From Physcia stellaris (taxonomy: Eukaryota; Ascomycota; Lecanoromycetes; Caliciales; Physciaceae): a stretch of 64,000 nt of DNA. The stretch spans positions 682,001 to 746,000 of the forward strand of contig JABSSW010000001.1 of assembly GCA_018902385.1 (NCBI GenBank), in the 5' to 3' direction. The first letter of the stretch is position 1. Each line of letters begins with the position of its first letter. The notes beneath the pieces were generated by a model that was not told where the DNA came from, ran no database searches, and worked only from the letters and a program-made list of their open reading frames with translations. Shown here piece by piece: positions 9,347 through 40,311 of the stretch. The translations under genes were made by a program, and so were the position numbers.

Positions 9347-10178
9347 GAGTTGGCCGGTTATGACGGTAGATGTTACGGATTCGGCATTCCTTTCTTTGTA
9401 GGGCGTACGAGGACATGCTTAATTGCTGGGATTAGAGTAAAGGAAAAGGCCTGAACGGCGTCCACGGTCTACAAAATGACTTTGTCTTAGACGGCTCTCA
9501 ATTACGCAGATAGATAGCTAGACCACACATCGGATTAGAACAGAATGACGTAATTATATTCGAATATCCTCGTTTGTCACGTGTGTTTCGTTCGACGTCG
9601 TAATTTCGTATTTACGAATAAACGCATATAACTCGGGTCCCGTGTATCGCCAGCTCAGCCGCTCATACAAACCAAACAAGATCAGGACATCAACGAAGTC
9701 TATTCTACGCTACCAAATTCACTACCCTACGGCTTTCCATGCCTTTCATTGGTCGACGGTGGCACTTTAGAGTCCGCGTTCCTGGGCATGGCTCGGGCTG
9801 ATTCTTCGCTGAGCGCCATACTAGTGCATGGGATAGCTGCTTCCCAGAGTTCATGAATATCTTTCTTTCATAGTAGCAGCATGTTGACATTTTTCACGCC
9901 CTTCACTAAGAATCAAGTCCCGTGGACCGAGAAGGGGATTCTAGCGAAAGTGGGCTGGTGGTTGGTCTCGTGAGAATGTGGCGTCAAATGCTTGGGGTTC
10001 GCATCGGCTTTCTGGTTTTATTAGAGGGGGGCACCGGCGTCGTTGATGGGGGTCTTTGGGATGTTGAGGTGGGATTGGGGGGAGCTTTTCGGATCGAGAT
10101 CTTTTGCGAGAAACGGGGTTTGCATGAGTTGTGACTGGTTTCAGATGGATGTCTTCTCTGGAACATACAAATTCGAAT
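9347..10178. other. Convergent intergenic stretch
   Basis: It lies between the ends of the amine oxidase and the secreted-protein gene. ORFs here are antisense shadows or random; nothing recognisable is seen. Confidence 0.5.
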
Positions 10179-13778: not shown

Positions 13779-14580
13779 TGGGAGCTTTGCAGGCTTCACG
13801 TGGCCGTGTGCAATAGAGGAGTATCAAGGATTTGCAGGGCATGTTTCAACAGCCATAATGTAGACAAGGATTTCCGTTGCAGGATATCTTCATCCGTACA
13901 TTCATCCGTGTATTTCATTCGAAGCAAGGAGAAACGACGAGGGGAGATAGGACTTAAGAAAGGCTTGGCAGCTAGCCGCGGGATCACGGGCCGTACTCGG
14001 GATATGCACTCGCTCTTCGAGTATTTCTGGAATTCTGCCGAATCACACATCTCCCCTCTAACACTTGAGGCAACTTTGCTTTTACATACTTCCAGTTTGC
14101 AAGCAACACGTCAAGGTATGTATGATGCATTACTGACGTTCCTCTGGTCTGGCTCCGTGGCCGGCGTCCCCCCTGCGGCGGCTCTTTAGCTTCTTTGGGA
14201 AGGTGCTTCCTCTGCAACCAATGACGAAGCTTTCAGTGGTGTGCCAGGTAAGCACCTGTTACCCAAAATCAGGAAATTAAGGTCTGTTTCGTCGAGGAAC
14301 GTGTTCGTGACTGCAGTCGGAAGCGTACTTATTACTGAGCGAGCTGTCGAGGATACGAGTACGGTACGCCACATATCTAATAAGTGAGATCGGCATCTCC
14401 AGTATGCAGGCACGTGTTGATTGGGATTGGTCAACAACAGCTTTCGGATTGTTTGGGACGGATAAGACCGTAGTACCCTATCTTATTTCGTAGTATGGAC
14501 CAGCGAAAGTATATATGTCCTAAATTCCGCCTTTTCTTTTCTAACCCTGGGTTATATCGAAGCTGTATTATATAAGCACC
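13779..14580. other. Divergent promoter region between SGF29 and the phosphoesterase gene
   Basis: No supported gene. Short ORFs on both strands lack family features. A TATA-like ATTATATAAG lies a few bases before the ATG at 14581. Confidence 0.5.
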
Positions 14581-16873
14581 ATGAAAGCTTCAGTTCTCTT
14601 TACTTTCGCCTGTAGTGCGCTTCCTATCTTTGGCTGTGAGAATTGCCAAGGAGATCATGTTCGCAACGTTAGACGTATGCAACCAGAGGCTCAGAACGCC
14701 ACCACCGCTCCGAGAGGACCTCTTGCATGGGGACAACTGAACTTCTTGCATACAACCGACACTCATGGCTGGCTTGAAGGGCATCTCAAGGAACAGAACT
14801 ATGGCGCCGACTGGGGCGATTTCGTGAGCTTTACACGGCATATGAAGCACAAGGCGGGAAATCTCGGAGTTGATCTGCTCTTGATTGACACAGGCGATCT
14901 TCACGACGGAAACGGTCTGTCTGACGCCTCCAAACCAAATGGAGCACTGAGCAATCTGATATTCGAAAACATCGACTATGATGTTTTAACGTAGGTCTTT
15001 TCGAATTACAGCGCGTGGTCTGGGAGCATTTCATTCTGATCGAGAGTTGCCTCTCATGCATAATGCTTGACGGGAATAGTAGTACTAATTCCTCAATCAC
15101 GAACAGGATTGGCAATCATGAGCTATACGTTACGGATATCGCCTATGAGACATTCAATCAGTTCAGTAAAGTCTATGGAGAGAGATACGTTACGAGCAAT
15201 GTTCAAATCTTGAATAACAAAACAGGACAGTTCGAGTACATCGGGTCAAAGTTCCGCTACTTCACCACTCCGCATGGACTCCGCATCATGTCTTTTGGTG
15301 TCCTTTATGACTTTACTGGCAATTCTAATGTCAGCAAAGTTATCAAGGCGGCGGACCTGGTTAAAGAGAGCTGGTTTTTGGATGCCGTTCAATATCCCGA
15401 GCCTATCGACCTATTTCTAGTCATTGGACATAACCCTGTGCGGCCAACTGTGCGTGGCTCGACTTTCGGGACAATATACAAGACCATCAGGGGATTACGT
15501 CCAAATACTCCCATTCAAGCTTTTGGTGGGCACACGCACATTCGTGACTTCGCCGTCTTTGACGACAAGTCCACAGGCCTTGAATCTGGCCGGTACTGTG
15601 AGACTGTCGGTTGGCTCTCTATGAGCGGTATCAATTCGTCCACATTCCACGGTAATATGAAGCCACGAGGAGTCCCGAATCCTACCCAGCCAGCAAAATC
15701 CGTTACAACTGGTAACACACCGACCTCAAGCTTGGTCTATCAAAGACGCTATCTTGATTTCAACCGACTAACATTTGCCTTCCATGCTGTCGGTTCACAA
15801 GACAATACATTCGACTACCATTCGGGCGAAAGAGTCACCGACCAAATCGCCACTGATCGGAAGAAGCTCAATTTGACGAATCTATATGGCTGCGCACCAG
15901 CGACATATTGCCAGTCATGCAAACCTTTCGGTGCTCCGGGAAACATATTCCCACTGCTAGCCACAGCTTTGTCCACCACAGTGATCAACTCGTCAAGAGC
16001 TAATAATCCACGACTGATCATCATCAATACAGGCAGTGTCCGTTTCGATCTAGTGGAAGGCCCGTTCACATTGTAAGCAACCATTTATCCCCCAGGAGGC
16101 TTCGAAAGCCTTCGGAGTCCACCTCCTTTCGACATTTCACTATCTTCCTATCTCCACGTAGACTTGTCGATCTTTTTTTTAACACCAACCGCTGATAAAT
16201 GAGCAGTGATGACAGCTTCATCGTATCTCCTTTCACGGACGCCTTCCAATATATCCCGGACGTACCATACAAATATGCCAGTCAAGTCTTGGGTGTGTTG
16301 AATAAAATTCCAGCCAATAAGAAACGCAAAAATCTTCGATCTCGAGACTTTGACTTCACATCCATGACTGGCGAAGTTTGCCCTGAGGGGATGGTAGAGC
16401 ATGCCCATGACTCATTGGAACCTCGTTCAGAACCTATGACACGAGGTCGACAACGCCGTCAGACCGCCAACCTTACTCCGGGCTACGTCACTAAGGGTAC
16501 GTTCTTGAGGATATACTTAGTGAATGATATACTGATGATCTGTTGTGCAGATGACTTCGGTATGGATGGAGATGATACAATCCACTCCAATATTCCGTTC
16601 TATCCGCAGCCAGACTACCTGCAGGCGAATGCTTCCCTTCCGACCAGCGGCGCAAAGCCTGAGACTGTTGACCTGATCTTCCTCGATTTCGTTGCTTCCG
16701 ACGTAGTTTCGGCTCTCAGGGGCCTAGGTGCCAGCTACACAGTGGCTGACACGTCATACTATCTTCCCAAAACTTTTACAACGAATAGCTATCTACCTGC
16801 GTATGCCAAGATTGCATGGCAAGCAAATGTACCGAACTGTCCGGTAGGTGCGGGTGTAGGGTCTAGCAATTGA
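14581..16873 (+). CDS. Secreted UshA/5'-nucleotidase-type metallophosphoesterase
   Basis: Four exons, 14581-14990, 15107-16072, 16207-16496 and 16551-16873, give 662 residues. The first 18 or so residues are a signal peptide ([18 protein letters not shown]). The metal-binding blocks of calcineurin-like phosphoesterases appear in order: [17 protein letters not shown] (completed by the first splice) and GGHTH. The second half matches the nucleotidase C-terminal domain. Such enzymes remove phosphate from nucleotides or similar esters outside the cell using two metal ions. Introns are 116, 134 and 54 bp; each join restores a family motif ([36 protein letters not shown]). Several NxS/T sites fit a glycoprotein. 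It is longer than bacterial UshA by about 100 residues, as is common for fungal members. Exact substrate unknown. Confidence 0.88.
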
Positions 16874-17321
16874 TCGCTGTTGTCTTAGACCGTCTCCAAT
16901 TGGAAAGCGCGTCTTCTTGGATAGATAGGCTTTGTTAGAGGATTTTCATGAAATTGATATTGTCCATGAGACAGCCTTGCATCGTCATCGAAGGTATGCC
17001 ATAGAAAATTGAAACTTTTCTCCAAGAGGGCCAACTCTGGTGTGCTTGATATGATTACTAGTTGTAGCCTTATTGGCCGTTACCTGACTCTAGCCCCTGA
17101 GCCAGGCATTAATACATGTATTCCCGGCTACGCTCTCTTAGGGCGCGAGGGCTTATCGATAACGAACTGTGGGGCTCTGCAATGACCTCAGACTCGAATG
17201 TTTAGAACGATCGAGTTGCGACGCAAGGCCAATTCGTTCTAGCGAAAACTCTTTTTTTCCCTCTTTTCAACACGTCACCCTTCGTTTTTCATAGATTCTC
17301 CAATAGCATAAGGTCCTTGAG
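16874..17321. other. Intergenic stretch before mannose-6-phosphate isomerase
   Basis: No gene seen. A pyrimidine-rich tract (CTCTTTTTTTCCCTCTTTTC, around 17246-17265) precedes the start at 17322 and fits a fungal core promoter. Confidence 0.5.
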
Positions 17322-18946
17322 ATGCAAATACCACTCATACGGTTGCAATGCGGTCAGCACCCAAACGAAAACGTAAATAACACAGACTGATACTTTACGT
17401 AGGGGTGAACAGCTATGATTGGGGTGAGATGATTATCTCCCGTCAACGATAAGAGAATCAAAGCTCAGAAGTCCTACAGGGAAGGTTGGATCTCAATCCG
17501 CCGCAGCCAAATTCGCAACAGCTACGCCGTCGAGTGGATTTTCAATTGAGCAAGAGAAGCCTTACGCTGAAGTACTCAAACTTGATTTGAGGATTGGAAA
17601 GTCGCTGGGCTAAGCTCACATAGCTATGGATGGGAACGCACCCTTCGAACCCATCTAAGGATGTCCAGACGCAGCGAACACTACTCGATCTTGTCCAGGA
17701 CAATCAAGCACTCATGTCCCAAGCAATCAGCAAGCGCTTCGGCGAGAAGTTGCCATTCTTATTCAAGGTCCTATCCATCAGGAAAGCACTGAGTATACAA
17801 GCGCATCCGAATAAGAAGCTGGCGGAGCAGCTGCATGCGAAGGACCCCAAGAATTACCCCGGTAAGGGATATGCCCCTTCCATCGTATCTCAAGGCTTAT
17901 AGGTCCAGATGACAACCATAAACCCGAGATGACTATAGCAGTAACACCATTCGACGGTCTCTGCGGCTTCAGGCCTCTCGCAGAAATATCGCATTTTCTC
18001 TCCACCGTCCCTTCATTACGAAAGCTCATTGGTGACGGCTCAGCAAAAGATTTCCAATCCGCTGTCCAAGGGCAGGAGACCGCTGACTCAGATGAGCAAA
18101 TGAAGAAGAACAAGAAAGCCCTAGAAAAAGCGTTTTCAACGCTTATGAATTGCGAGAAAGCAAATATCGCTGCAGCGGCCAAAGACCTAGTCCAATCCGC
18201 CGAGTCGGAGGGCGAGAACTTCGCAGGTGGAGGCGGGCCCTCGAACGGTGGAAAGGAGCTTGCGGACCTCGTGGTTCGCTTGAATAGCCAGTTCGAAGGC
18301 GATATAGGGTTGTTTGTGCTTTTCTTCCTGAACTACGTCAAGCTTGAGATTGGCGAAGCCATGTTCCTAAAAGCCGACGATATTCACGCGTACTTGAGCG
18401 GAGGTGCGCCAATCTCCGTCCTTTCCAACTTCTCACAGAGCAACGTAGGCTAATTGAATGACAGATATCATCGAATGCATGGCCTCCTCCGATAACGTCG
18501 TCCGCGCCGGCTTCACTCCTAAATATCAAGATATCCCAACTCTTACTACCATGCTAACGTACAGCTACGCCCCAATCTCGGAGCAAAAGATGTCTCCCGT
18601 CGACTACCCCTACGTTACACTCAACAGCACTGCCTACTCATCCTCGTCCAGCGTAATCCTCTATGACCCGCCCATCGAAGAATTTTCCGTGGTTAAGACG
18701 GAGCTCAATGGCAAAGGTGCGAAAGCTACCTTCGAGGCCATTGAGGGCCCGAGTATCTTCATTTGTACGAAAGGCAGTGGAAAGATCAGCGTGGGACCTA
18801 AGACGGAGAAGGTGGACGAAGGGTATGTGTACTTTGTAGGAGCAACAGCTGAGGTCGTGTTGGAAAGTGAGAGTCCGAGCTTTACTACATTTAAGGCGTT
18901 CTGTGAGCTGCAGGGCAAGGAAACGGCTCAGACCAACGGCAGTTGA
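17322..18946 (+). CDS. PMI40: Mannose-6-phosphate isomerase (type I)
   Basis: Six exons, 17322-17352, 17403-17423, 17480-17571, 17624-17861, 17903-18403 and 18465-18946, give 454 residues. The enzyme interconverts mannose-6-phosphate and fructose-6-phosphate, feeding GDP-mannose and wall glycan synthesis in the cytosol. Diagnostic blocks: [20 protein letters not shown] (assembled from three exons, one of only 21 bp), [22 protein letters not shown] (zinc-binding Gln and His), DDNHKPEM (zinc-binding Glu), [20 protein letters not shown] and [14 protein letters not shown]. Every splice restores one of these. Introns are 50, 56, 52, 41 and 61 bp. A Gly/Ser-rich loop near the middle ([18 protein letters not shown]) lengthens it slightly relative to yeast. 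It is the best-supported gene here. Confidence 0.95.
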
Positions 18947-20054
18947 AAAGCATCCAGTATTATGATCAAGGTATTCACGTAGCTATGAAGAGATGCGCTA
19001 CGAGATAGTCAAATGGCTGGATAGCTTTACGGGTGACTTAATATAGATGGAAGATAGATGGAGAGGAATCAAAACCAGACGCTTTTCAGCTCTCCATTGT
19101 CACTGTTGCAATCTCGTGACCACACCATCTGTGATACTTTACTTCACGGATAAGTTATAAGGTGCTAAGGTTACTGTACAAGGTAGTCTTGAGCTAGAGA
19201 TGCCACATAGATGGCCTTATACTAGATATGATAAGGCTAGAGTGCCAAGAGTGCTTAAACCTTCTGCACATGGCAGGAATATCAACGACCATCATTACTG
19301 CCACTGCATTACCTCGTATCGACAGAAAATGGGCAGCTCCCTGTAGGAGACCTGTATCACACACCTGGTCTTCTTCCCGAATCGATGGCTCTAGACCTGT
19401 AGCAGCACACCCCTCCCGTTCACTCTTCTACCTTAAGCGAATGCGAGCAAAGCATGTTCGACGGGAAGCAGGCTGACAATGGGGCTACAGCGTCGACGTG
19501 ATCTTCGGATCTGACGTCTCGAACACTGGACCGTTGGATGTCAGCTGACTATGAGAGCTGTATCAGGCAAGCATTAGCGAGTAACCGTAAAATCCTCACA
19601 TCACCTGCTTCTCCTCCTTCCAGAACCTCCGAGTCTAAGAGTAAGGCTGTCAGCCACAATGCCTATTTCATTATGTTCTGTTTTCTAGCTTTCTGACCCT
19701 GGATAGTACCAATGATCTCTTGCTGGTAGATCAGGCGTAGGTTATGCAACTGCGAGGCACAGCTCATACCCTTAGCCTGCCTGCACCATCCCAGACTTGT
19801 AGCACAGAACGGTGGCGTTCGTAATGCTCAGCGCTACCAGAGCCTCTTTGGTCGCGTTGTGTGGAACCAAGTCAGTCACGTTCTAGAGTAGCAGGATTAC
19901 TCGCCTGGACTTGCGGCATTTCAAAATGTACCAGCAAAATGCTCTCCGTATTCGGTACTGGTGGCCAGAACCTCATCCGTAGTATATATATCTCGATGTA
20001 TCTGCTTGGAACTTCATTTCATCATTTTCCTCACTCTCGACCTTCTAGTTTACA
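18947..20054. other. Intergenic stretch, no gene recognised
   Basis: Short ORFs without recognisable families. The last 80 bases before 20055 hold a TATATATATCTC-like box and probably the GMC promoter. Confidence 0.5.
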
Positions 20055-21743
20055 ATGTTGTTCCCCGTAATTTCCCTTTTGCTACACCTATTGCTCGTCC
20101 CACAGCTACGTGCGACTCCAGTCCCACCAAAGCCGTTGACGGAAAGGGCTGGGACGCTGTACGATGTGATAGTCGTAGGCACTGGACCTGCAGGTGTTAT
20201 AATTGCGAGTCGACTCAGCGAGAACCCAGCACGAAACGTGCTTCTTTTGGAAGGAGGTGGACCATCCTACTGGATCACTGGGGGCACTGAAAGACCATCC
20301 TGGCTGGCTGGCACTAGCCTCTCGCGCGTTGACGTACCTGGACTGTACTCTACGATCTACTCGAATCCTTCGACTCAACTTCTGTGCCAGAACAAAATCA
20401 GAGCGTATGGTGCTTGTACTATTGGGGGCAACAGTGCAATAAATGCCGGTTTGTTCTACGAACCACCGGCCTCTGACTTCGACAAATACTTTCCGACAGG
20501 CTGGAAATACAGTGACGTCGCACCTTCGATAAGTCGCTTGTATGCGACACAGCCTTCTACCAACAACCCGTCTCTAGACGGCATATACTATGAGCAGTCA
20601 GGATATACGTTGGCCAAGCAATGGCTCGTAAATAACGCGGGATACACAGAATTGAGTATCAATGCCAACTCTGCCAAGAAAACAAAAGTATTCGGACATC
20701 CTGTCTACGATTACGCCAATGGCCAGCGCGGCGGGCCAGTCGTGAGCTACTTACAAACCGCATTGAAACGCTCTAACTTTCACTTGCAAAGCGGTACATG
20801 GGTTCAACGTATCGTCCAATCCAAGGGTGTCGCCACTGGTGTCGTTGTCAATACTGGCGGAGTTACGAGTACCATCGGGTTGACTGCTAAGGGCAGAGTT
20901 ATCGTCAGCGGCGGCGCGCTCAAATCTCCAGAGCTATTGATGAAGTCTGGCATCGGTGACCCCACAACTCTGACCACCCTCTCCAATGCCGGTCAGCTGG
21001 GTGGTCTGGCATCATCCAATTGGGTAAACAACAGCGCCGTTGGCGTAGGACTCTTTGACAATCCCAACACCTTCATCGAACTCTCAAGCCCTGCGCTCCA
21101 AGCCTATAATTACAACTACGACAATCCGATCCCTGCCGACCGCGACCTCTATCTGACCAAAAAATCAGGGCCTTACTCCTTTGCCGGTGGCAGCTGCTCT
21201 TTCTGGGATACCGTGGTACACGCCGATGGCACCGTTGCTGGCGTACAAGGCGGCCTGGGTGCCGCGGGCTATCAGGATTATACTGACAATAACACGGTCA
21301 CAATGAACATCTACGGTACCTCAGGCCTCAAGTCCTCCGGCAAGGTTGTATTGGGTGGAAGTGATTACCTTCCTGGCCCTGATGGCAATGTCTACTACAG
21401 CAACCCGCAAGATGCGCAGGACATTGCAACGTTCATCCGAAGGCTCTTCGACGCCTTGCCTGGGACCGGGCTTACGCCGAGGAATTTGGCGCAAACTTCG
21501 AGCGTGGCGGATATTGTCAAGTATATTACGAGTTGGACACCGTACACGCGAGGTCAGGTGAACCATTGGTCTAGCTCATGCAGGATTGGAAGCTGTGTTG
21601 ATGTCAATACGACGGTTATCGGAGCGAAGAATATTCATGTGGTCGATGCTTCGATTGTGGCGCCCTTGACTGTCAACCCACAGATGGGAGTCATGATCGC
21701 GGCTGAGAGAGCTTGGGAGCTGATTAACAAATTGATGGTTTAG
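20055..21743 (+). CDS. Secreted GMC oxidoreductase (cellobiose dehydrogenase flavin-domain-like, AA3)
   Basis: A single open exon of 562 residues. A signal peptide (MLFPVISLLLHLLLVPQLRA) is followed by the FAD-binding motif VVGTGPAGVIIASRLSE. The active-site region reads VNHWSSSC, with the catalytic His, and the partner motif VDASIVAPLTVNPQMGVM carries Asn where cellobiose dehydrogenases have it. The whole matches the dehydrogenase domain of cellobiose dehydrogenase, but there is no N-terminal haem b cytochrome domain and no cellulose-binding tail, so it would need a separate electron acceptor (oxygen, quinone, or a lytic polysaccharide monooxygenase system). Expected role: extracellular oxidation of sugars or oligosaccharides in plant-wall breakdown. 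It converges with the hydrolase gene, with 281 bp between stops. Intronless structure is usual for this subgroup. Confidence 0.88.
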   Translation: MLFPVISLLLHLLLVPQLRATPVPPKPLTERAGTLYDVIVVGTGPAGVIIASRLSENPARNVLLLEGGGPSYWITGGTERPSWLAGTSLSRVDVPGLYSTIYSNPSTQLLCQNKIRAYGACTIGGNSAINAGLFYEPPASDFDKYFPTGWKYSDVAPSISRLYATQPSTNNPSLDGIYYEQSGYTLAKQWLVNNAGYTELSINANSAKKTKVFGHPVYDYANGQRGGPVVSYLQTALKRSNFHLQSGTWVQRIVQSKGVATGVVVNTGGVTSTIGLTAKGRVIVSGGALKSPELLMKSGIGDPTTLTTLSNAGQLGGLASSNWVNNSAVGVGLFDNPNTFIELSSPALQAYNYNYDNPIPADRDLYLTKKSGPYSFAGGSCSFWDTVVHADGTVAGVQGGLGAAGYQDYTDNNTVTMNIYGTSGLKSSGKVVLGGSDYLPGPDGNVYYSNPQDAQDIATFIRRLFDALPGTGLTPRNLAQTSSVADIVKYITSWTPYTRGQVNHWSSSCRIGSCVDVNTTVIGAKNIHVVDASIVAPLTVNPQMGVMIAAERAWELINKLMV

Positions 21744-22024
21744 GCTACTTGTTAAGCGATTGCTTTCCATCATCTAGACGAAGTATACATGAGGAGTTGA
21801 AGGATTTGATACTTCATTAAGAGTCGATAGACTGATAAAATCTGACAAGTGCTGAATCAAGTCTTCTTTTACAGTTCAAGGTCCTTGAGTTAACAGCATT
21901 CCCTATCTCAATTTGGTGTACATATATTTCGGAGATACCATGCCTCCGATATTCGTAACAAAGAAAGTAACGCCAGCTTATGTAGTCACTAATACCTTCA
22001 ACGCATATTTCATTTCGGCGTAGC

Positions 22025-23007
22025 TCAAGATTCGCCACGCCCTCGCAGCGACCCAAACCGCGTCAACCAGTCAAAAAGCTCAACCGCAAACCTCGCAGGC
22101 TGATCAACCATAACCAAATGCCCCGCGTCCGGAATGAACGCACAATCCCTAACCTTCCCCTCAGGCAACCTCCTCATCAACTCCTCCACCTTCCCCCTCG
22201 GGATCCACCCATCCTGCTCCCCCCACACAATCTTCACCTCGCACCTAACCCTCGCATAAAGCTCCCCATCCAGCATCTCAGCCACATCCCCATCCTCAGC
22301 CTGCGCAATCTGCCGCACGAAACTCCTCTGCTTCTCCCCATCCGCAACCCAGGGAGCAGCAAGCACATCCTCCCACCCCGCCCTCAGCACACCGGGATCG
22401 TGACACGCGCTCCGAATCACAGCCCTGACGACCGCGTCGAAAATGCCCGGGGAAAGCTGCACGAAGACATGCGGCTCATCGCGCACGAGGGTGTAGAAGC
22501 CGTCGCCCCAGGGGAGCACGGCGTTGGCGTCCACGAGCATCATGCTCTCGAAGTCGACGCCGTGCAGCAGGTGCGCGCGCAGGGCGATCGTGCCTGCGAT
22601 GTCGTGCGCTATGGCCGTCGGGTGGGCGGGGAGGCGCGCGTGCTGCAGGAGGGCGGTTAGGGCTTTGGCTTGGAATTTCACGGAGGTGTCGCCCACGAAG
22701 AGGGGGTGGGGTTGTCTTTTGGGTTTGGATTTGGATTTGGATTTGGAGTTGGGGTTGGATGCGGGGTGTAGTTCTGGGATTGGCCGTAGCCGGGGAGGTC
22801 GTAGGTCAGGATGCGGTAGGGACCTTTGGCGTGGAGGGCTTGGATTGTGGGGTGGAAGACGGCTGATGACCAGGGGGTTCCGTGCACGAAGACGACGGGT
22901 TTTATGGGCTGCTGGGGTGAGGTTGGGGGGTTGGAGGGCCCGGTGAGGCTGTAGCGGATGTCCCAGCCCTCGAAGTGGTAGACTGATGGGAGATCGATGG
23001 GTTTCAT
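22025..23007 (-). CDS. Alpha/beta hydrolase (Asp-nucleophile type) with a frame change at a hexanucleotide repeat
   Basis: Minus strand from the ATG at 23007. The first half (oxyanion motif VFVHGTPWSS; YRILTYDLPGYGQSQ) and the second half (PLFVGDTSVKFQ; nucleophile elbow AHDIAGTIALR; WGEQDGWIP; PDAGHLVMVDQP) are both well kept but lie in different frames. The switch falls in a low-complexity stretch at about 22715-22762 with four TTTGGA units. No GT donor is available there. A GC-AG intron at 22716-22762 would join the halves in frame; otherwise an indel in the repeat has broken the gene or the assembly. The nucleophile is Asp (HDxA), so the relatives are epoxide hydrolases and haloalkane dehalogenases rather than Ser esterases. 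Without a signal peptide it should be cytosolic. Confidence 0.75.
22724..22747. repeat. Hexanucleotide microsatellite (TTTGGA)4
   Basis: Four uninterrupted units, flanked by degenerate ones, lie at the point where the hydrolase reading frame changes. Confidence 0.85.
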
Positions 23008-28777: not shown

Positions 28778-28807
28778 CCAAGCCTTGTGTGGTGCACGGA
28801 CCATCCC

Positions 28808-28840
28808 CTCCGCATCCAATTAGTGAAATTTAGCGTGTTT
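28808..28840 (+). repeat. Left terminal inverted repeat of the piggyBac-like element
   Basis: Exact reverse complement of 30908-30940. Confidence 0.9.
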
Positions 28841-28959
28841 ATTTCGTGATCTCCCCCCCCACCTGCAACCACCATTACTCCATCAATAATACGTCTATTC
28901 TGGCCATTGCGACGTCGTTTGAATCGTCTGAATCGAGTCTATTACATCATATAAACAAC

Positions 28960-30720
28960 ATGTCATTTGCTGAGTCAACACCTGAACTAATCACCGTGCA
29001 AGAAAAAAAAACACGCGTCGATACAAACGCTTCCATTTCGAAATCGAAAAAACGACGTTTCATTGTATTGAAACAAAAAAAAGCCGTTCAAACGTCTGAG
29101 TCTGATTATACATCTTTTATTACATTTATTCATCGATCATTTCAATTGAATCACGCTTGTATGACGTCTTGAAAATTCGTTCAATTGTTTTTGTTTCTTT
29201 TGCAGTCGATATTCGACTTATTGTTTTATCACATCAATCAGACGATTTACATCAAAAAAATCAATTGAAATTCATTCATTATGATGAAATTACGTCAATG
29301 AATTGTTATACGCATTTTCATGATTCAACATCTGACAAAAAACGCAACAATTCAATCATTTTGATTTCAAAAAAATTTTCACGATTTATCATTCAATCGC
29401 GGTCGATATCAAATCATTGAACGTCATTTGAACGTTGAATTTAATCAACAAAAATCATACAACAATGCATCATGATTTTGAAAAATCGAAAACGTTTTGA
29501 ACGTTTTCAAATCTCAACTATACTCGTTTATTCGTTTTGAAAGTCATTTTGCAATTGACGAGTTCGCAGTCGAATTTCACGATCGTATGAATAACAAATT
29601 TCGTCTGTCACACAAGTCAGCGAAAAAAAACTTCGTTTTATACGTTTTGATCATGATAGAGACATTCTACACGATTTCATGATGTGAGAATTTCGCGATG
29701 ATTTCGAATATCATAAAAACGATATCACGATCGATATATTTTCAAGAACGATTCGAAAACGCAAGAAAAACATTATCGAAATCACTGCTACGACGATTAA
29801 TTTTGCATTTACGAAAAAAATAATATATATTTTTTGCGAACGAGTTACACGCAATTTACGTCATCAACATTTCGTCTGTTTCATCGACAATTTTTTTACG
29901 AATTTTCATCTCGTCAGAGCTTTTCTGATTCTCAATGTCGATATTTGTGACATTGTACGAGACAACGCATCTGATATATCACTGAAATTGAAAAAAATAG
30001 CTGTTGCAAACAAGTCACAGTTGAATTTAAAACAATGAATACATCGAATTGTGAACGAATTGATCAATTGTTTCGTTTGAAAAAATTTCGAACGTGATCA
30101 CGTGATTTCATTTGTTATTATTGCATATATTTCACAAACAAACGAGCAAACATCACGAAAAATTCGATTCACGATCGATGTTTTTTTTCGAAACGATTTC
30201 AATAAAATCGTCGTCAAACAATTCATTATTGCAATGCAATACAATTTTCATATGAATCATGTGAATCGTGCAAATCAATTTCGAAATGAATTGACGATAT
30301 CACGATTCGAACAATTCAAATGAACGAAACGAATGATCGAATACATGATGAATGCGATCAATATTAATGCATATATCGTTTGAAATCATTATCAATCACA
30401 GACGAATTCTGATCATCGAAATCGACGTATATTTATTCAAAAATTGATTGATGAATTTTTACGAAATTCAGATATCATATATCAGTCGTCAAAGTGTGTC
30501 AAATCGACGTATTGTGTGTGAAGTGATTGTTCGATCAATTTTCACATCAAGTTTCGAAAACGTCAAGCATTCATTTTCAAAAATGTCAACATACAACATC
30601 GTTCGAGTCGTAAAACGTTTGATTATTGTATGACATGTAAAATGAATTTATGCGTGTCACATGAATGTTTCAAAAATTATCATGACTCGAAAAAATGATC
30701 ATACGAGTGCTTTGATCAAT
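28960..30720 (+). pseudogene. piggyBac-type transposase (DDE_Tnp_1_7), broken
   Basis: Read in pieces: an N-terminal start MSFAESTPELITVQEKK at 28960; the first catalytic-Asp region HFAIDEFAVEFHDRMNNKF near 29545-29600, followed by SAKKNFVLYVL, which is the piggyBac IDE-GR-KP order; the late block YNFHMNHVNRANQFRNE and ININAYIV near 30240-30375, matching YN-xx-MGGVD and NAYI; and the Cys-rich end CMTCKMNLCVSHECFKNYHD near 30628-30687, matching the zinc-binding C-terminus. Stops and frame changes occur throughout. The normal enzyme cuts and pastes at TTAA. Confidence 0.8.
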
Positions 30721-30907
30721 AGAAAGATCTGAAAACGTTTCGAGACACTTGAAAATGATTTAATGATTTCAAACGAATTCCGAATGTAATCATATTTCAG
30801 TTATTGAATGTTTATATACTATCGAATTTTTTCACTGAATTATACACATATACACGTAAATTTGATGAAGTAATGATGATTGAAGTGAAAAAGAAAAAAT
30901 CGCGTGA

Positions 30908-30940
30908 AAACACGCTAAATTTCACTAATTGGATGCGGAG
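30908..30940 (-). repeat. Right terminal inverted repeat of the piggyBac-like element
   Basis: Exact reverse complement of 28808-28840. Confidence 0.9.
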
Positions 30941-31239
30941 AAAATATCTCGCCTAGAATATTCAATTAGGTCACGCATTGTTTTAAGATATCTAGAGCTT
31001 CAATGCTTCAAGATGAATCTGAATGAAGTCGATCGCGTTTTCGTCTGTTTATTTCATTTCTCTGAGACAGTTACTTTGATGAGAAGTATCGTGAGTTCTT
31101 CTATGTTACGATCGACTCGACTGTTTTTAGACGCACGACGAGCTCCGACTAGATTACTCGGGCCGGCGCTATAATAAGAGTTTCATCGATATCATGAAAG
31201 TTCTCAGTACGATAAAATTAGTTTTTTTGAGCTTTACAC
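30941..31239. other. Short spacer of ordinary composition
   Basis: Base words such as CC, CT, AG and GG reappear here, between two strongly mutated blocks. No gene seen. Confidence 0.5.
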
Positions 31240-32471
31240 GAAAGTTAATATATTAGATTTCACACATCTTGATGTTTCGAATTTTCAATCACTTTTTGAA
31301 CTCGATTACACATTTTTGCGATCAACAAATCACACAAAAACGCATTGAAACATGAATAAAATGTTTGATTTCATTTGTAAACGATCAACGCGTGTTTATA
31401 TGATGTTTTTAAATCACAAATTGACGAAACAACGAACAAATTGTTTCATCAATTATTATTTGAATAATCATCGTTTTATTTTTCACGATCACGTTTTTTT
31501 CGAACGACGTTTTATCAATGTTTTTGTTTTTGTTTTTCGTTTCGAATACGCATTGTTGCACGTTAACGACGATTTCAATGATAACTTTGTTGATTGAATT
31601 AAACAATATGACGTTGACAATTTGACGATTCGTTTGAAATTTGAAAAAATTTGAATCGCAATGTGAACGACATTATAATTTTCATTGATGACGAATATTA
31701 TTGAAAAAACGATAAAATGATTACATTTGATCAACTCGTTATACGAATCGATTAATTTAATCGTGAAAATCGTTGTCGTCATGAACGAATATGATTTGAT
31801 CGAATTTTTTTGATATGTTTTCAATTCATTTGCGTATGATGTTTTGATTCAATTGATTTCAAACGTTTTTTCATTTCATGCAAATTGATTTTCAATTTTT
31901 AATTTGATTTTGATGACGTTTATCGATGTTTTTACGATTTCAATTTCAAACATGTTCGATGACGTTGATATTTGATAATCGTGAAAATCAATCGATAAAT
32001 TTGACGATATCGTTGAATGAAAAATATTGAAAATTGTTTTCGAATTTATGCGCAAAAACATTGTTTTCAACAACGAATCATTCAACGTCAAAATATTTGA
32101 TTCGAAAAACGTTTTTGATTCAAAAAAACAATTTTTGTTTCAAAATTTTTTTTCGATATTTGAATCAATTAACATTATCGTTGTTTTTATCATTTTTTTG
32201 TTTAATATGATTACGTCAATAAATTTTTCATTTGATTTGTTTATCACGTTTCGTTTTTTGATTTGTTGTTTCGTTTTTTTTCAAAATTTTCAAAGCAAAA
32301 AAAACGACGTAATGAATTTTTTTTTCGATTTCATTTTTTTCGATCAACAATCGTTTCATTTTTTTTTTGTTTTTGCAAAATAAAAGTGCATAGAATTTTT
32401 TTTATTATAACAAAACGCAATTCAATCGAATTTCATGTTGAAATTTTCAATTCGTTTCATTATGACGTCTT

Positions 32472-32656
32472 TGTAAGACGCGTGCTCAGAAAACAAATAA
32501 CATAACGAGAATATTTGATCTAAAAAACAAATATGTACACGACAAATCGAAATGTCTGAAATAAATTGTGCGTCAAATTCAGATCACGTTAGTTTTCATA
32601 TGAACTCTCGCTGATAAAATAAGTTTTCAATCGAGATTTCAAACATGCTCGTAACA
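32472..32656. repeat. Left LTR (185 bp)
   Basis: Direct copy of 34374-34558; TG...CA ends. Confidence 0.88.
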
Positions 32657-33896
32657 TTATTTCTTCGTCTTTTTCAAGCTTCGTTCCGAAGCGAATAATT
32701 CATTTTTTTTATCGGTCGACATTGCAAAGAAATTCATTGACTGTGACCTAAATATCAATCTGATCGTGATTGAAGCCGAAAATCCCCAAGCAGATGCGAC
32801 AGAAGTGAAAAGATAAATCCGAAAGTAAAAAAAGGAGTGCGAAAACAAAGCATATAAAACCACGAAAATGAAAATCTTGTTGAGAATTTTGATCGCGAAG
32901 ATATTTGCAAATTAATATGATGAAACGATCGATGTTTCAGAACAAAGCAAAAACAAAAGCAACAAAACGGTATCGATTTCGCGAGCGTATGCTGTTTCAA
33001 ATTTTTCGGATTTGAGCTTTTCGAGTTTTTATTAATCGACACGTCCTGATTGACTGCAGATTTTGAGGCAGAAAATTCGATTGACAAAATGTTGACGTAT
33101 TGACGGCAAGCAAACAGGCAGACAGAAATCTGTGAAAAAGACGAATTGAATTGACTGCGTGACAAATTCACATTGATTGTTGTTTTTCATCTTTTCATGT
33201 CATTTGCTTTCGTATCGCTGTATGTAATAGATTCATCTCTTGATGTTGACTGCAGAGATGTAAAAAATCGAACGCATGCGTTTTGAGATCGTTCTAGTCG
33301 ACTCATTAATAAAATTTCATTGAAACAGGTTCACTAGTCGTTGTAGCGGACTCACTGACGTCATTGAAGCAGACTTATTGAAACAGACGAAGCGAAACGA
33401 AACGTGAATCTCTCGATCATGCTGAAGATGTAACAGATCTAAAAATCGAAAATTTTGAAATTGATTTTGAATGATTGTTTGTTGATTTGATGATTTGATT
33501 GTTAGATTGTTGTGAATGATTTCTATTTTTCTCTTTATCAAGCGATGTCTCAACGTTTCAAAAGATAATTATTGTAAAAATCATTCGAAAATAAATGAAC
33601 TGACTGACTCGAAAAAGCACGGAAGTCGTTTATTGGCTAGATGTCGAAAACTCGAAAAAAAAAATCGACAATTGACTGTCGTTGTAGCAGATTCATTGAT
33701 TGACTGATTTCCAAAACAAAAAGATCAATTATTGATTGAATGTCGACTGATCTCGACGAACAAGAAGATCGATTAATTGATTGTCATTTTCGCAAACTCA
33801 CGATCATTCTCGCTGATTCACGATGCGCATAGTGAAAGTAAAATGCAATCATCGCTTCCAAAAAAAGAATTTCAGACGTTGACGATTTTCTTTTGA

Positions 33897-34054
33897 CTCG
33901 CGTATTTTTACGAGTGATTTGAGATTTTCAGATCGGCGATTTTCTTTTGACTTGCGTATTTCTACAAGTGATTCGGCGATTTTCTTTAACTATTCGCGTA
34001 TTTTTACGAGCATATTTGGCGATCTTGTTTTGCTTACTCGCGTATTTCGACGAG
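33897..34054. repeat. Four hairpin-forming 18-bp repeats inside the LTR element
   Basis: Copies at 33897, 33951, 33993 and 34037 follow the plan CTCGCGTATTTTTACGAG, with short self-complementary ends around an AT-rich loop. In copy 2 the arms read CTTG and CAAG instead of CTCG and CGAG, so both sides of one pair changed together. Confidence 0.6.
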
Positions 34055-34373
34055 CAACTCACTTGTTTCGACAGAGCGTTTGACTGAATGTCACTTAATC
34101 TCGCAAAATTCAGAGCGAGAAATCGTTGTGTTGAAAACGTGAAGATGATCTCGTTATCGTCATTGCTGATTGAAAAATAATGCGCTGAAGACGTCATCGT
34201 CGCAATTTGATCGAATTTCGTGCTGAAAATGAAATCGTCACGAAATTGATCGAAAAATTCGTGCTGAAAATGTGCAATCGTCACGAATTGAACGATTTTG
34301 TTTTTTTTTACTCGTTGATCGTTGCAACGAGTGTGAAGTTTACATCGTTCGTCACGATGAAAATCAAATATAA

Positions 34374-34558
34374 TGTAAAACGCGTGCTCAGAAAACAGAT
34401 AGCATAACGAGAATATTTGATCTAAGAAGCAAATATGTACACGACGAGTCGAAATGTCTGAAATAAATTGTGCGTCAAGTTCAGATCACGCTAATTTTCA
34501 TATGAATTCTCGTTGATAAGATAAGCTTTCAATCGAGATTTCAGACATGCTCGTAACA
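34374..34558. repeat. Right LTR (185 bp)
   Basis: Direct copy of 32472-32656; TG...CA ends. Confidence 0.88.
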
Positions 34559-35285
34559 GTCTTTGTGAAATGTTTCGTCGATCAAAATTCAAAAACAAAA
34601 CATATTTCGAATTTCATCATTATGTATAAAAAATTCGTTTGTAAATATTGCACGATTTTTTCAATCAAATTTTTTTTATTTCAAAACAAATTGAAAACGT
34701 TTTTGTTTGATTTTTTCGTTAAAAAACGATTTTTATTTATTTTTTCGTTTGCAAACATCATGTTTATACATCATTTAATCAAAACAAAAAATCGAACAAT
34801 TGAATTTCAAATTATTTATGTGTTGTTTCGCAAATCGTTTTTTGATTTTTTTATTGCACAATACGTATTTAACGAAAAAAATTTTTTGAAATTCGATGAA
34901 TTTTTTTTTGCGATCACGATTTTTGAATATTTCGTAATTAAAAAAATCATGAAAAAACAAATTGTGTTTTTTCGCATGTTTTTTGATTTTTTTGACGATT
35001 AATGACATTTTCATAAAATTGATGTTTTTTTTGTTTAATTTTTGATTGATTTTTCGAATTGACATATGTTGTTTGAAATACATGTTTGTGATTATCGTTT
35101 TGAATGTATTGAAAAAATGATGTTTACGTTTTTTTATGCGAACGTCGATCACATAATGATTTTTTGTTTTGCGAAATTTATTGAGCATGTTGAAAATTCA
35201 ACATCAAATCAATTATACAGAAATATTTGCATGTGTGAAATGATTTCAAAGAAAGAATGCGAAAAAAATGTTTACATCAATATTT

Positions 35286-36354
35286 GATGGGAATTTCTTC
35301 CGCCGCTACGGTCTCCCTGGTTACTGCCGCGTAAAGCTCAAAAAAACTACCCCTATCGTACTTTCCAACTTCAGCACAGAGGACTTCAAGGTCTTGGTCG
35401 ATGACCAGCTAGATTCACAATTAAGCCTCGAGACTAGGTGTCTTTCCTAACTCGCAAGGATCGACTGATCGGTTTTAGCCACATGATCTTACTGCACGAA
35501 ACAAAAGCGATGCCTTGACCTGCCATACAATCTAAGCGAGATACTTGACCCGTGTACGCCTGAGATAAATTTGGAGTTGACTGTTTCGCTTTAATGGTTG
35601 CATCGAGGAAGACGATCTCTGGACTGGCGCATGGCGTCAGCACCGTACGATACCCACTCGACAATGGACGATTGAATACATAAATTTCAGGCTCTGAAAC
35701 CAGGTAAGCCGCACACACAATAATCTTCAGGCAGTCTCTTATCACATGGTCTCCGGTATATGGTATTGGACAATCTTACCTCTCATGTATCGCCATCGAT
35801 GAACTCATCATGGCAAGACGCGGACCCGTTTATGGCACAAAAACCGGCATGAAGGTGACACGAAGATGATATGATTTCCCGATTTAGTCTTGAGTCGAAT
35901 AAAGGCAGGTCTGTTAAGGTATTGCCGTTGAACATGCTACCACTTTGGTGCCTGAGGCCGTGTGATTGGCAACGACATTTTCTAAATCTTTCGTTGAACG
36001 CGGGCATTGTCTTGAATTATCTACGTTGCGGCAGTTGCGTTACGTGTACGCGATCAGGAATTAAAATGACTGATGAGTTTTACATGGGAGATGCCATGAT
36101 CTGTCATTCAAAGTCCCGGAACAAGAGCTCCTCCCCTCTGACTGCATCAAATCCATCAAAGCTACCCGTCGAGTGTTGATCAAAACCGTCTCTGGGCATA
36201 TATCAAGCCATAGGGAAGTCTGACCGACCCTCAACACCAAATCCGCGGTGTCAAGCAAAGATCCACAGCAGCCACAAACACCTCCTCTCTCCCCTCTTCC
36301 CCCTTTCAACAAACACCCCACACCATCAAACCACCTCCCAACCGCACAGCAACG
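35286..36354. other. Return to ordinary DNA, no gene supported
   Basis: Composition normalises sharply at about 35285. Minus ORFs at 35434-35745 and 35783-36007 are open for 75-103 codons but do not join into a known family. The last 100 bases are probably the promoter of the next gene. Confidence 0.45.
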
Positions 36355-37396
36355 ATGCTCCGCAACGCATTCTCCCCACTCCCATCCCCCTCTTCCCAGC
36401 CCGAAAACTCCAGCATCATCCTCCGCAACGCATTCGCCCCCCTTTCCCACCCAAGCACCTCAATACAGCCAGCCAACCCGCCGCCCGCACTCACGCAACC
36501 GACTCTCTCGCGCGCAGCATCCGATCTCCTCGCCTCTGGGATCTCTGCTTCTACTCTGCTAGGCGCAGCCGTAAGCTTCTCTTGTCTCTCCCATCTCCTA
36601 TCCGTTTCTTTACTACTCACCGTCCATTCGCTCTTTTGCTCCTCGCTTTCCCCCCAGCTTTTGGACTGGCGCCACTCCCCTTCCTCCTCACCCAAATACT
36701 CCCCTTTCTCCTCCCCAACAACACCCACTAACCCCCCCAACCCCACAAAAGTACGAATCCCTCTCCCTCCTCCGCGCCGCAACCCAGCACACCTCCACGC
36801 AGCACCAAACCCTGCTCAATGACCGCTCCTCGACCAAGCCACCCCACCATCACCATCAGGAGCAAGCATCCCAAACCGTAAGCCGCGCAGCGAGTTTCTC
36901 GCGCCTGCGTCCTGTGGGGTCTGGGAGTGTTGTGGGGAAGGCTGGGGAGGAGGAGGTGCGGGAATTGGAGCTGCGGCTTGAGAGGATGGAGGGTGAGGAG
37001 CGGGGGTTGAGGCGGGATGTAAGTTTCTTTGTTTGGCTTCTTCTTTAGTTTCAAGTTTGAAGTTTGATTTTTTTGGAGTTTGGGTTTTCATTAAGAGGGG
37101 ACTTGGTGTTGATTCCATGAGACGAATCTTGGGGAAGAGAGAGAAACTGTAGAGGGACTTAAGGGGATGGGGAAAGGACAAGAAGCTAATGAGAGTGTTA
37201 GATCGAGTTCCTGAAACGGTATATCGAGCACGAGATGTTGGGTGGGAAGCATCAGCGCGAGTTTAGCTTCGAGATACAGGGTGGTGAGGGGGTGGAGGAG
37301 AACGCTGAGGATGATATGAGGAGATTGGATGACGATGATGAGATCCCGGAGAAGATGGCGAGGGGGCAGGATTCGCCATTAGGGTCGGCGTTTTGA
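36355..37396 (+). CDS. Coiled-coil protein of unknown function
   Basis: Three exons, 36355-36570, 36752-37018 and 37202-37396, give 225 residues; both introns (181 and 183 bp) have GTAAG donors and AG acceptors and are in phase 0. The N-terminus is Pro/Ser-rich (two near-copies of LRNAF...PL), exon 2 has a His/Gln patch and then a strong heptad region (EVRELELRLERMEGEERGLR) that continues into exon 3 (IEFLKRYIEHEML), and the C-terminus is acidic. No signal peptide or membrane helix. I do not recognise the family. The long coil suggests a structural or adaptor role. It is convergent with the helicase gene. Confidence 0.65.
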
Positions 37397-37896
37397 ATAT
37401 CAAGAGTATTCGGTTCAAATTGAGCCAAAATGGCTTCATCGGCTCCTGCGTGCATGGGCCCTTTTGGTCAGATGAAGAGAATTAATGACAGTATAACCCT
37501 CTTGCGTATCAACATGGAAGTAGTTTCTTCCCACACCGAGAAGACACATGTATATTGGATAGCATCGCCACGCCGGTAGTATTTTTGTGTCGCAGGAGTC
37601 CGGTATCTAGTACTGACTAGATCCGACGACGAGGAACCCGAATTCAGGTGCCTTATGTCAAACTTTGTAGGGCCTATCGTGACAGCCTGAGGTTCTAGCT
37701 GTACTTTACTCCAAAATTGCGACAGTCGACGATGTTCATGTGACTGAATTCGCCCATAAGCTTATTGAGCTCGAACAAGGCGTGTTCTTCCGTGAAGGCT
37801 CGGTCTGGGTAATCCGACATGCTTGTCAATGTTACGCTGATGAGCCGATAAATCTGAAGGTCTGCAGAAGCTGCAGGCATACCAATGATTGTTTGT

Positions 37897-40311
37897 TTAG
37901 GTCTGAAGATCTGCTATGTTCGGATAACGCAGGTCTGCATTCTCCTCCAGATGATTCATCCAGCTCTTGAGGAACTTGCTGCCCCTGTCGAATCATTCCA
38001 GATTAGCTGTTGCGGCAGGTGGACTACTCACATAGCGGAGATCGAAATTGAAGCAAATGGGAAACTAATCTTGCTTACCGACCAACCGTCTCCGAGTCTC
38101 CTATCACGCATAGATGGCGCTTGGGTCTCGTCATTGCCACTACACATATAATAAGTCCATGCTCAAACTCAAATGTTCGGAGCTGGAAAGTGCATTACCA
38201 TTCAATCTCCGCTTCTCAGCCAGGAAACCAACCTCGTGCTCTGGGTTACTCCTTACGAGGCTGACTATTACAGCTTCCTTCTCGCGTCCTTGAAATCCAT
38301 CAACACTGCCTAATTCAATGCCAGGAAAGTGCTCCTTGAGGTCATGCGACAGGAGCGCTAGCTGTGCATTGTAAGGCGTTACGATAGCAATGTCCTCAGC
38401 AAGGACACCAGCATGGACCAGATTACGAACGTGCATTTTCACAAGTGCAGCCTCCATCTCATTGCTCTTGCTGTCACTCATGATGGCTCCTTTGGTTGTC
38501 TTCTCTGTGCCTTCGTCTTCGGTTTTCTCAGGGAAATCACCACCCTGCGTATCGTAAAACACTAAAGGTTCCTTGGTATCATCCGTATCTTGCACTTGGT
38601 AAGGAAGGTCTTTAAGGAGTCGGGCTTTGACGGTATCGGCTGCGATAAGCTTCGAGTCGTACATCTCATCAGATGGAAACTTCATTATCTTCTCATGCAT
38701 TCGATACTGTGTTGTGAGCATCCGCTTGATCGACGGACCATGTAAAGTCAGCAGGCGATCGAACAGCGTGACTTCTAGAGATATCTTCAGTAAGTTCTCC
38801 TTTGCCGCCTTTGTATCTGTTTTCGCCTTGTCCACCTTTGATTTGGTGTTTGTCGACTTGATGGTGGGCGGAAGCTGAAGATGATCGCCTGCTAAAATGA
38901 CTTTCTTTGCAGAAAGCAATGCTACCCAGCACTGTGCCTCTAGCGCTTGACTTGCTTCATCGATGATCACCACATCGAATCGTTCATTCTTGAGCTGAAA
39001 CCCTCCTGCACCATGCAAAGTAGCTAAGACGACTTTGCTTCCGCTAACGAGAGTCGTCACGCATTGACTTTCTCGTTCTCGAAACTCCTTTCTCAGCTCC
39101 TTCATATCACCGTAGATGGCTCTTGGCTCTTTGCCACTACGAGTCTTCTTGATGCTGGCTTGCTTTGCATCCATTTCCTTTCTTACGTCTTTGACAATTT
39201 CTGCTGCATCCGAGGTCTGAGTCAAGACGTCAAGCGAATGATTTAGCACACTGGGTAGCAATCGAGCTGGATGACCAAGGCGAATGATTGGTAGCTTATG
39301 GGGTGCTAGCCTCTCGACAATATTGTCAACGGAGATATTAGAAGGCCCGCAAACCAAGACACGAAGCTTGCGCTGCACAAGCTGCAGTATTAGCTCGATG
39401 AGGGTGTACGTCTTCCCAGTCTAGACAGCGTCAGCCGGACTTCGACTATTCGGGCATGTGTAGCTGCCGTACCCCTGGCGGGCCGTGGATCAAAGCAACT
39501 TCTGGCGAAGCAAGTGCAAACTTTATAGCATCTTTCTGTGAGTCATTGAGCGTTGGGTCATAGAATTCCAGACGTCCAATCTGATCTTCAGAGTCCTTTG
39601 AATCTGAAGACACTGGTGAGGGAGACTCTAGGCCGAAGAGCACTCGTGTCAATGCAGTATATTGGCTCTCGTCCAATCGCTTAATCTTCTCCATGATTTG
39701 AGTCATCCTTTGTTCACTCATTATTAGAATAATCTCTTGGCATGGGGCATAAGCTTACCTTCTATACGTGACGTCGTTGGCTAACTTGACTCTGGTCAAA
39801 AACCCAAGATCAGTATCATTCAAATCAATAGAGACAAAGAAGAAAGTGTTGAAACCCACACATCCACTCACACCCACAGACGCCCTCCTAATTTATCCAT
39901 ATCTTCCTCCTCTTTGCCTAATGCAACTTGTACGGCTTTTCGACCAACCCTGACAACTACTCCCTCCACGCCTCTTCCCTCCATGCCAGCCTTTTCTTTC
40001 TTCCTCTCACTACCCTTAGGCTGCTCCCCTACCCTTACAACATCCCCTACGCGAACACCGTGCTCGCCTATCTCTCCAGCGTTTCCGATTGCATGATCCT
40101 GCTCTAGCTCCAAGACAGTCTTGCCGCCGAGACCGGTACGCTGAGATGTAATCACGAGGTTCAGGATAGCAAGACCAGCGCGTGAAAGTGCAGTAGGTGA
40201 GGTCGAGGACAAAAGTGCCGAGGTTGAAGCCGTCTCGGCAGCAAGTTCATCGGAAAGGAGGGACAGCTGGGTGGAGGCGAAAGTTGGGACGTCGACTGCT
40301 TTTGGTGGCAT
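37897..40311 (-). CDS. SF1 DNA/RNA helicase of the Hcs1/IGHMBP2 (Upf1-like) group
   Basis: Six minus-strand exons, 39872-40311, 39759-39791, 39473-39716, 38199-39420, 38079-38139 and 37897-37984, give 695 residues; introns are 80, 42, 52, 59 and 94 bp and each join preserves frame and motif. Motor motifs: Walker A HGPPGTGKT (built across an intron), Ia VCGPSNISVDN, Walker B VIIDEASQ, III LAGDHLQLPPT, TTQYRMH, V GSVDGFQGREKEAVI and VI NVAMTRPK (also built across an intron). The N-terminal domain has the beta-barrel features of the group (LWVVKLANDVTYRR). Relatives are yeast Hcs1, the ATP-dependent helicase A linked to DNA polymerase alpha, and human IGHMBP2. It is divergent from the dynactin gene, with 801 bp between starts. 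Confidence 0.93.

Follow-up and report, generated by a model that had tools for sequence, protein, structure and literature searches.

In Neurospora crassa, repeat-induced point mutation (RIP) converts C:G to T:A pairs on both strands of repeated sequences and selects its cytosines by their 3' neighbour, in the order CpA>CpT>CpG>CpC (PMC5496416; here and throughout, statements on published systems refer to excerpts of the cited papers). We report an AT-rich island of mutated repeats in a 64,000-nucleotide stretch of the ascomycete Physcia stellaris (the window; G000:C1:682001-746000, from an assembly of 43.97 Mb in 147 contigs), in which cytosines were lost before pyrimidines (CpY) and largely kept before purines (CpR). 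We put at roughly 0.85 the probability that, as the sequence comparisons below suggest, the island consists of repeats hypermutated by a RIP-type process with the target order CpC > CpT >> CpA, CpG. This process resembles that of N. crassa in the direction of the change, the involvement of both strands of repeats and the dependence on the 3' neighbour, and the genome carries RID- and DIM-2-like genes; however, its target order is unlike the one established there.

Similar partial likenesses are seen with other described systems. RIP in Trichoderma reesei also changes C to T in duplicated DNA, the change arising through a cross, but it favours CpA and CpG about equally, followed by CpT and, last, CpC (PMC5496416). 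Magnaporthe oryzae and Botrytis cinerea T4 prefer CpT and then CpA, and B. cinerea B05.10 and Sclerotinia sclerotiorum CpA and then CpT (PMC4352252, in the text of which the word CpC does not occur). CpT is a target in these fungi, as it is here, and a pair of RID homologues is known from Botrytis and Sclerotinia too, but CpA is their other main target, whereas in Physcia CpC is the leading target and CpA mostly escapes. CpC has been named in Monilinia, for CpC->TpT double changes (PMC8959702), in Stagonospora nodorum, among the dinucleotides depleted from repeats (PMC2621366), and in Rhizoctonia solani AG8, where single-nucleotide polymorphisms are densest at CpC (PMC4014442); however, RIP of the CpA type prevails in Monilinia and S. 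nodorum, and R. solani is a basidiomycete that has been considered in connection with CpG-biased hypermutation. The transposons of Microbotryum, with a CpG-type signature, and of Tuber, with CpG first and CpA second (PMC4352252), carry C-to-T changes as here, but CpG is among the least affected contexts in Physcia. RIP-mutated rDNA pseudogenes of filamentous ascomycetes are changed most at CpA (PMC5555474), in contrast to the CpC and CpT changes of the mutated rDNA described below, and in Zymoseptoria 240 of 242 changes lie at CpA (PMC10294615). A preference restricted to CpC and CpT is stated nowhere in the excerpts of the literature that we surveyed, although it may have been published before; RIP contexts were reportedly surveyed by Clutterbuck in 2011.

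A preliminary description of this DNA had placed the island at 28960-35285 and, from six lines counted by hand, had claimed that CpC and CpT were lost while CpA and CpG were kept. The hand count is exact: the 44 cytosines of these lines are followed by A in 19 cases, G in 24, T in one and C in none, and the other strand, said to be poor in ApG and GpG, holds two and zero of these, respectively. A count of all 16 dinucleotides over 28960-35285 without 32657-34373 (4,609 bases) bears out the claim, with observed/expected ratios of 0.08 for CC, 0.32 for CT, 0.07 for GG and 0.40 for AG, as against 0.91, 1.07, 1.07 and 0.97 in the comparison stretch 7500-22000; steps that are not depleted stand at 1.42 (CA), 2.67 (CG) and 1.26 (TG). 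In 1,000 composition-preserving shuffles CpY is expected 341.5 times (standard deviation 12.2; minimum 299) and is observed 86 times, and its complement RpG, a G after a purine, is expected 322.9 times (standard deviation 11.7; minimum 286) and observed 99 times. The share of CpY among cytosines is 0.13 in the island, and does not fall below 0.39 in any of 112 one-kb windows taken elsewhere. Steps from a pyrimidine to a purine have almost the same density per kb in the island and in unique DNA (CA 70/68, CG 56/57, TA 54/51, TG 67/65), and so do steps between pyrimidines taken together (266/263), with CC and CT shifted into TT; this matches the prediction of a pure CpY->TpY change on both strands.

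The flanks of the island are spared. Outside it the window has a GC content of 0.49, and CpC, CpT, CpA and CpG are near expectation. A combined CpY index, (CpC+CpT+GpG+ApG)/(TpC+TpT+GpA+ApA), takes values of 0.93 in 7500-22000, 0.89 in the window outside the island, 1.09 (normal) in the left flank and 0.74 in the right flank (500 bp), as against 0.06-0.24 in the mutated sequence classes. The right edge is sharp, GC rising from 0.24 at 35200-35249 to 0.54 at 35300-35349; at the left edge, the transposon described next is much less mutated over its initial ~150 bp. The extent proposed in the preliminary description needs correction, the affected repeats beginning at ~28803 and finishing near 35265. 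The part it had left out, 32657-34373, is the inside of a long terminal repeat (LTR) element, which bears the same signature in weaker form (CC 0.24, CT 0.75).

Direction and context can be read from the 2.14-kb inverted-repeat DNA transposon at the left of the island (28803..30940, forward strand; inverted ends 28808-28840 and 30908-30940), a mutated copy with a DDE_Tnp_1_7 transposase frame, which we take to be of the PiggyBac type. The transposase profile PF13843 (DDE_Tnp_1_7) matches the 641-codon frame of another copy, L020, with an E-value of 1.4e-14, and the window's own copy at C1:711392-711679 and C1:711841-712374, while a 501-bp transposon probe finds at least 40 matching places in the assembly, its own locus included. 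The sequence examined beyond the window, picked by similarity to the island, amounts to some 0.25 Mb out of 44 Mb. Twenty fetched copies and that of the window make up the mutated set of 21 (a further one, L053, gave no alignment and was left out), with GC contents of 0.23-0.32. The transposase search also turned up a full-length copy, L052 on contig C22 (G000:C22:31626-32825 and flanks), with a GC content of ~0.46, which served as reference. Counted as cells over both strands, a reference C has become T in 3168/3549 cases at CpC (89%), 2830/3595 at CpT (79%), 436/5425 at CpA (8%) and 161/4258 at CpG (4%). In the reverse direction, the C22 copy has T where the others hold C in 0/190 cases at CC, 32/844 at CT, 117/5124 at CA and 134/4244 at CG; as these counts are above zero at CpT, CpA and CpG, it is nearly, but not entirely, untouched, and would be either a recent arrival or an escapee. 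The aligned copies read here accordingly favour CpY and not CpA as the site of C-to-T change, as the preliminary description had anticipated.

That the transposons might simply be AT-rich by native composition or codon use, with no mutation process involved, would fit the low GC of all 21 aligned copies; but the C22 copy has a near-normal GC and differs from them mostly by CpY changes, and an rDNA unit is altered in the same way, which together refute this view and leave it practically no chance. The pattern is also recovered without the reference: among columns with C kept in at least two copies the values are.68 for CC,.73 for CT,.09 for CA and.07 for CG, and in pairwise comparisons with the window copy the fractions of sites differing by C/T are.73 for CpC,.76 for CpT,.11 for CpA and.05 for CpG. 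CpT-dominant counts have been reported also where CpA-type RIP is expected (PMC2621366, PMC7882544, PMC6180176), and there CpA saturation may have left CpT as the visible variation. Such an artefact cannot account for the present result, since the comparison was made against a nearly unmutated copy and CpA is preserved.

Taken singly, all 21 copies are changed far more at CpC and CpT than at CpA and CpG. Even the six with the fewest mutations show.79-.88 at CpC,.60-.70 at CpT,.00-.05 at CpA and.00-.04 at CpG, and the top values in any copy are.98,.97,.24 and.09, respectively. CpC runs ahead of CpT save in near-saturated copies, where the difference vanishes or is slightly in favour of CpT (L015, L019), while the order of CpA and CpG is not fixed. 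These per-copy figures refute a history in two steps, with classic CpA-directed RIP followed by another process. More mutated copies do carry some CpA change (73/305 in L030), but the least mutated ones are already hit at CpC and CpT with CpA nearly intact, and the island's CpA, CpG and TpA densities, noted above, differ little from the values in unique DNA, whereas such a history should have disturbed the CpA or CpG counts. We therefore regard it as very improbable.

The choice of cytosine is made by the 3' base, with little influence of the 5' base: every NCY trinucleotide is changed at.70-.95 and every NCR at.03-.10, whatever the 5' base. Deamination of the AID/APOBEC type follows a 5'-neighbour rule, and a deaminase of this kind is rejected by these rates. 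The dipyrimidine signature of ultraviolet light hits C in both TpC and CpC, and is likewise rejected, TCA being changed at.10 and TCG at.03. Hence, of the explanations offered in the preliminary description, the RIP-like process with a CpY preference is supported, by the rates in the aligned copies (CpC.89, CpT.79, CpA.08, CpG.04) and a concordant rDNA unit, whereas the deaminase and the two-step history are not. Rates of CpY change on the two strands are nearly equal (.84 and.86), and the sequence by itself cannot separate CpY>TpY from RpG>RpA. The damaged base could in this sense be a G after a purine, lesioned in a repeat-directed manner; SN1 alkylating agents and the tumour signature SBS11 prefer this very context, and the order of CpC over CpT would be compatible. 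However, chemicals would not select repeats and spare their flanks, and we know of no enzyme making a repeat-directed lesion of this type, which renders a G-lesion a scarcely credible source of the changes.

The changes are also concentrated. Of the 7,336 substitutions that separate the C22 copy from the other 21, 6,608 are C>T or G>A, and in copy L027 302/407 CpY are changed but only 3/550 CpR. In bins of 200 bp along the transposon the rate of change is.83-.96 in the interior and falls to.56 and.50 in the two terminal bins. Both observations bear on the alternative that, in place of acute RIP, DIM-2 methylated cytosines of heterochromatin in a CpT-leaning (here CpY) context and the resulting 5-methylcytosine decayed slowly. 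The genome has a DIM-2-like gene, and a review ascribes to DIM-2 a preference for CpT (PMC13297926); but the changes are too concentrated for a slow background decay, as the substitution share and L027 indicate, and the transposon ends are less mutated than its middle. We consider such decay unlikely, although less so than the other alternatives above.

The same signature is found in an rDNA unit. The 45S unit on contig C41 (L033, L034; G000:C41:42500-50000) is a hypermutated pseudogene, whose LSU, 5.8S and SSU match Rfam across the fetched stretch. In Infernal output a capital consensus letter denotes a strongly conserved position, and the count was confined to such positions in part of the unit's alignment blocks, excluding two variable LSU blocks (454-635), the poorly aligned SSU before 1491, one first block and the tail of one last block. 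Against the Rfam consensus, C has become U in 76/87 cases at CpC, 52/93 at CpU, 3/72 at CpA and 2/68 at CpG (Fisher tests: CpY 128/177 vs CpR 5/140, p 3.5e-40; CpC vs CpU, p 7e-7), and one subset of the blocks taken alone has 0/28 at CpA and 0/36 at CpG. Decay of methylated CpG is rejected by the low change of this dinucleotide in the rDNA unit as in the transposon (4% over the 21 copies). A functional 5.8S/45S unit was not found, the only 5.8S match, with 39 of 2,644 candidates scored, being to the mutated unit of C41. Four 119-bp 5S genes, among the eight matches listed, are unmutated, each keeping 33 CpY+RpG steps. Together with the weaker element ends, these spared short genes are compatible with a homology-length rule of the RIP kind, on a small sample of four of the eight matches listed. 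One intact 5S gene (L051) lies close to an AT-rich stretch, the GC of its flank dropping to 0.24-0.38.

Within the window the mutation layers agree in that CpC is hit ahead of CpT. Next to the transposon lies an older repeat with near-saturated CpY loss, whose left part (30945..32471) shares 67-69% identity, and whose right part (34565..35260) shares 74-75%, with a tandem pair of copies on contig C28 that lack an LTR insertion between the two parts; short LTR matches aside, two 501-bp probes find this repeat elsewhere only in these C28 copies, at 67-75% identity. The two parts are separated by a nested LTR element (32472-34564) with 191-bp LTRs (left, 32472..32662; right, 34374..34564) that are 91% identical, and a partly mutated inside (32663..34373). 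Unique DNA has 122.1 CpC+GpG and 127.7 CpT+ApG per kb; the inside of the LTR element has 14.6 and 81.8 per kb, i.e. 12% and 64% of these, while the transposon and the older repeat retain ~3% of the CpC+GpG (3.1 per kb over both parts of the latter) and 20-31% of the CpT+ApG.

The two LTRs of one element are identical at insertion, and those of the nested element differ at 17 positions, by two transversions and 15 transitions, 14 of which are at CpT/ApG, one at CpG and none at CpA, with 26 CpT, 25 CpA and 22 CpG sites available and no CpC remaining in either LTR. As fractions of sites that differ by C/T, 26 alignments of the LTR family with the window copy give.85 for CpC,.57 for CpT,.09 for CpA and.13 for CpG, and three alignments of the older repeat, which is deeply diverged, give 16/17 for CpT,.22 for CpA and.28 for CpG. 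The nested element may belong to a small non-autonomous family. Its LTR recurs genome-wide in several pairs ~1.7-1.9 kb apart. No Pfam match above the cut-off was obtained for three of the island's open frames, of which one belongs to the LTR element and two to the older repeat. Elsewhere in the window, the GC skew flips abruptly at 8001-10000 (-0.32 to +0.25) and at 36001-38000 (-0.34 to +0.23), and a block of GC 0.62 is present at 22001-23000.

The coding consequences of this context are distinctive. TGG->TGA is the only sense codon change by which a CpY mutation on either strand leads directly to a stop, and frames are therefore expected to fill with TGA. The 641-codon frame of L020 has 16 TGA and no TAA, TAG or TGG; the longest run free of TAA and TAG in 500 simulated sequences is 566 codons. 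L020 has the longest such run among the 21 copies; in the remaining 20, many of which are incomplete, the best runs span 189-510 codons. Over the 21 copies the transposase frame has no TGG, 249 TGA, 47 TAA and 8 TAG, and retains 452 CAA, 48 CAG and 323 CGA; the TAA and TAG point to the presence of some further change (CpA, frame shifts). The 25 transposase matches across the genome contain 95 TGA, six TAA and no TAG.

The standard RIP indices were suspected in the preliminary description to miss such an island, and they do. The thresholds in use are a TpA/ApT of at least 0.89 and a (CpA+TpG)/(ApC+GpT) of at most 1.03 (PMC10998396, PMC6180176), and the five mutated sequence classes have 0.36-0.64 and 1.17-1.40, respectively, both on the unmutated side.

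A search for the enzymes that might be responsible recovered four matches to the methyltransferase profile PF00145 in the genome, taken as three genes since two of them adjoin on contig C5; their introns were predicted from the sequence. One, L010, is DIM-2-like, matching the solved chain 9bap, which we take to be Neurospora DIM-2, with an E-value of 2e-181; it reads SPCQGFS where the chain reads SPCPGFS. The remaining two, L009 and L011, are 40% identical along 174 residues of their catalytic part and 34% identical in an N-terminal region; both keep the PPCQ and QIGNAVPP motifs, and both open frames end shortly after the latter, placing the catalytic domain near the frame end. Their motif wording and architecture and the descriptions excerpted from PMC2432034, rather than a tree, mark them as probable RID-like proteins. 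NCBIfam gave for each of the three methyltransferases a superfamily match below its cut-off, plus one weak match. This is the same kind of methyltransferase set as in filamentous ascomycetes, with two RID homologues reported in Botrytis and Sclerotinia (PMC2432034; for Botrytis also PMC8399656). The open frames of the window, judged by inspection, appear fungal. Purified RID had no detectable methyltransferase activity in vitro, according to excerpts of a 2026 review (PMC13297926).

Hence, we posit a process in which duplicated sequence would be recognized, presumably by homology sensing before meiosis, and C would then be converted to T on both strands, probably by a C5-methyltransferase of the RID or DIM-2 type. 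The context would be set by a RID-like paralog (or by DIM-2), which would read the 3' neighbour as a pyrimidine, taking CpC first, CpT next and CpA or CpG little. A more specific proposal, which we hold only tentatively and at somewhat worse than even odds, is that one RID-like paralog switched from CpA to CpY, with the result that nonsense arises almost only at Trp (TGG->TGA), Gln and Arg codons are largely spared, and the damage is invisible to TpA-based indices.

Several points weigh against a RIP-type process. CpA, the usual target of RIP in most fungi, is not preferred here, and the 5S comparison is small, resting on four of the eight matches listed. The right flank (500 bp), at 0.74 versus 0.89-0.93, has a slightly low CpY index. 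Further, the near-unmutated full-length copy on C22 implies that the process is leaky, or that arrivals are recent, or that its activity is over. Nevertheless, C:G->T:A transitions on both strands of repeats, with the unique DNA of this window spared, and the selection of cytosines according to the following base are what RIP entails, and they extend over three repeat families and an rDNA unit; it is the marks of the canonical CpA type, namely CpA as main target, a raised TpA/ApT and a lowered second index, that are wanting, CpA being changed at 8%. On the sequence features amenable to testing, the process thus appears to work like RIP, but its context differs from the RIP orders cited above.

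An index built on extra TpA scores CpY-type repeats as unmutated, and surveys resting on it could therefore undercount them. The effect on coding differs as well, the stops being almost only TGA. A natural, nearly reversed preference bears on how RIP picks its cytosines; its occurrence in one genome along with two RID-like paralogs and a near-unmutated reference offers a route to tests of these paralogs for the enzyme and the residues that read the 3' base. Should one such paralog indeed have switched to CpY, saturated RIP of the CpY type may be present in genomes that are at present classed as free of RIP.

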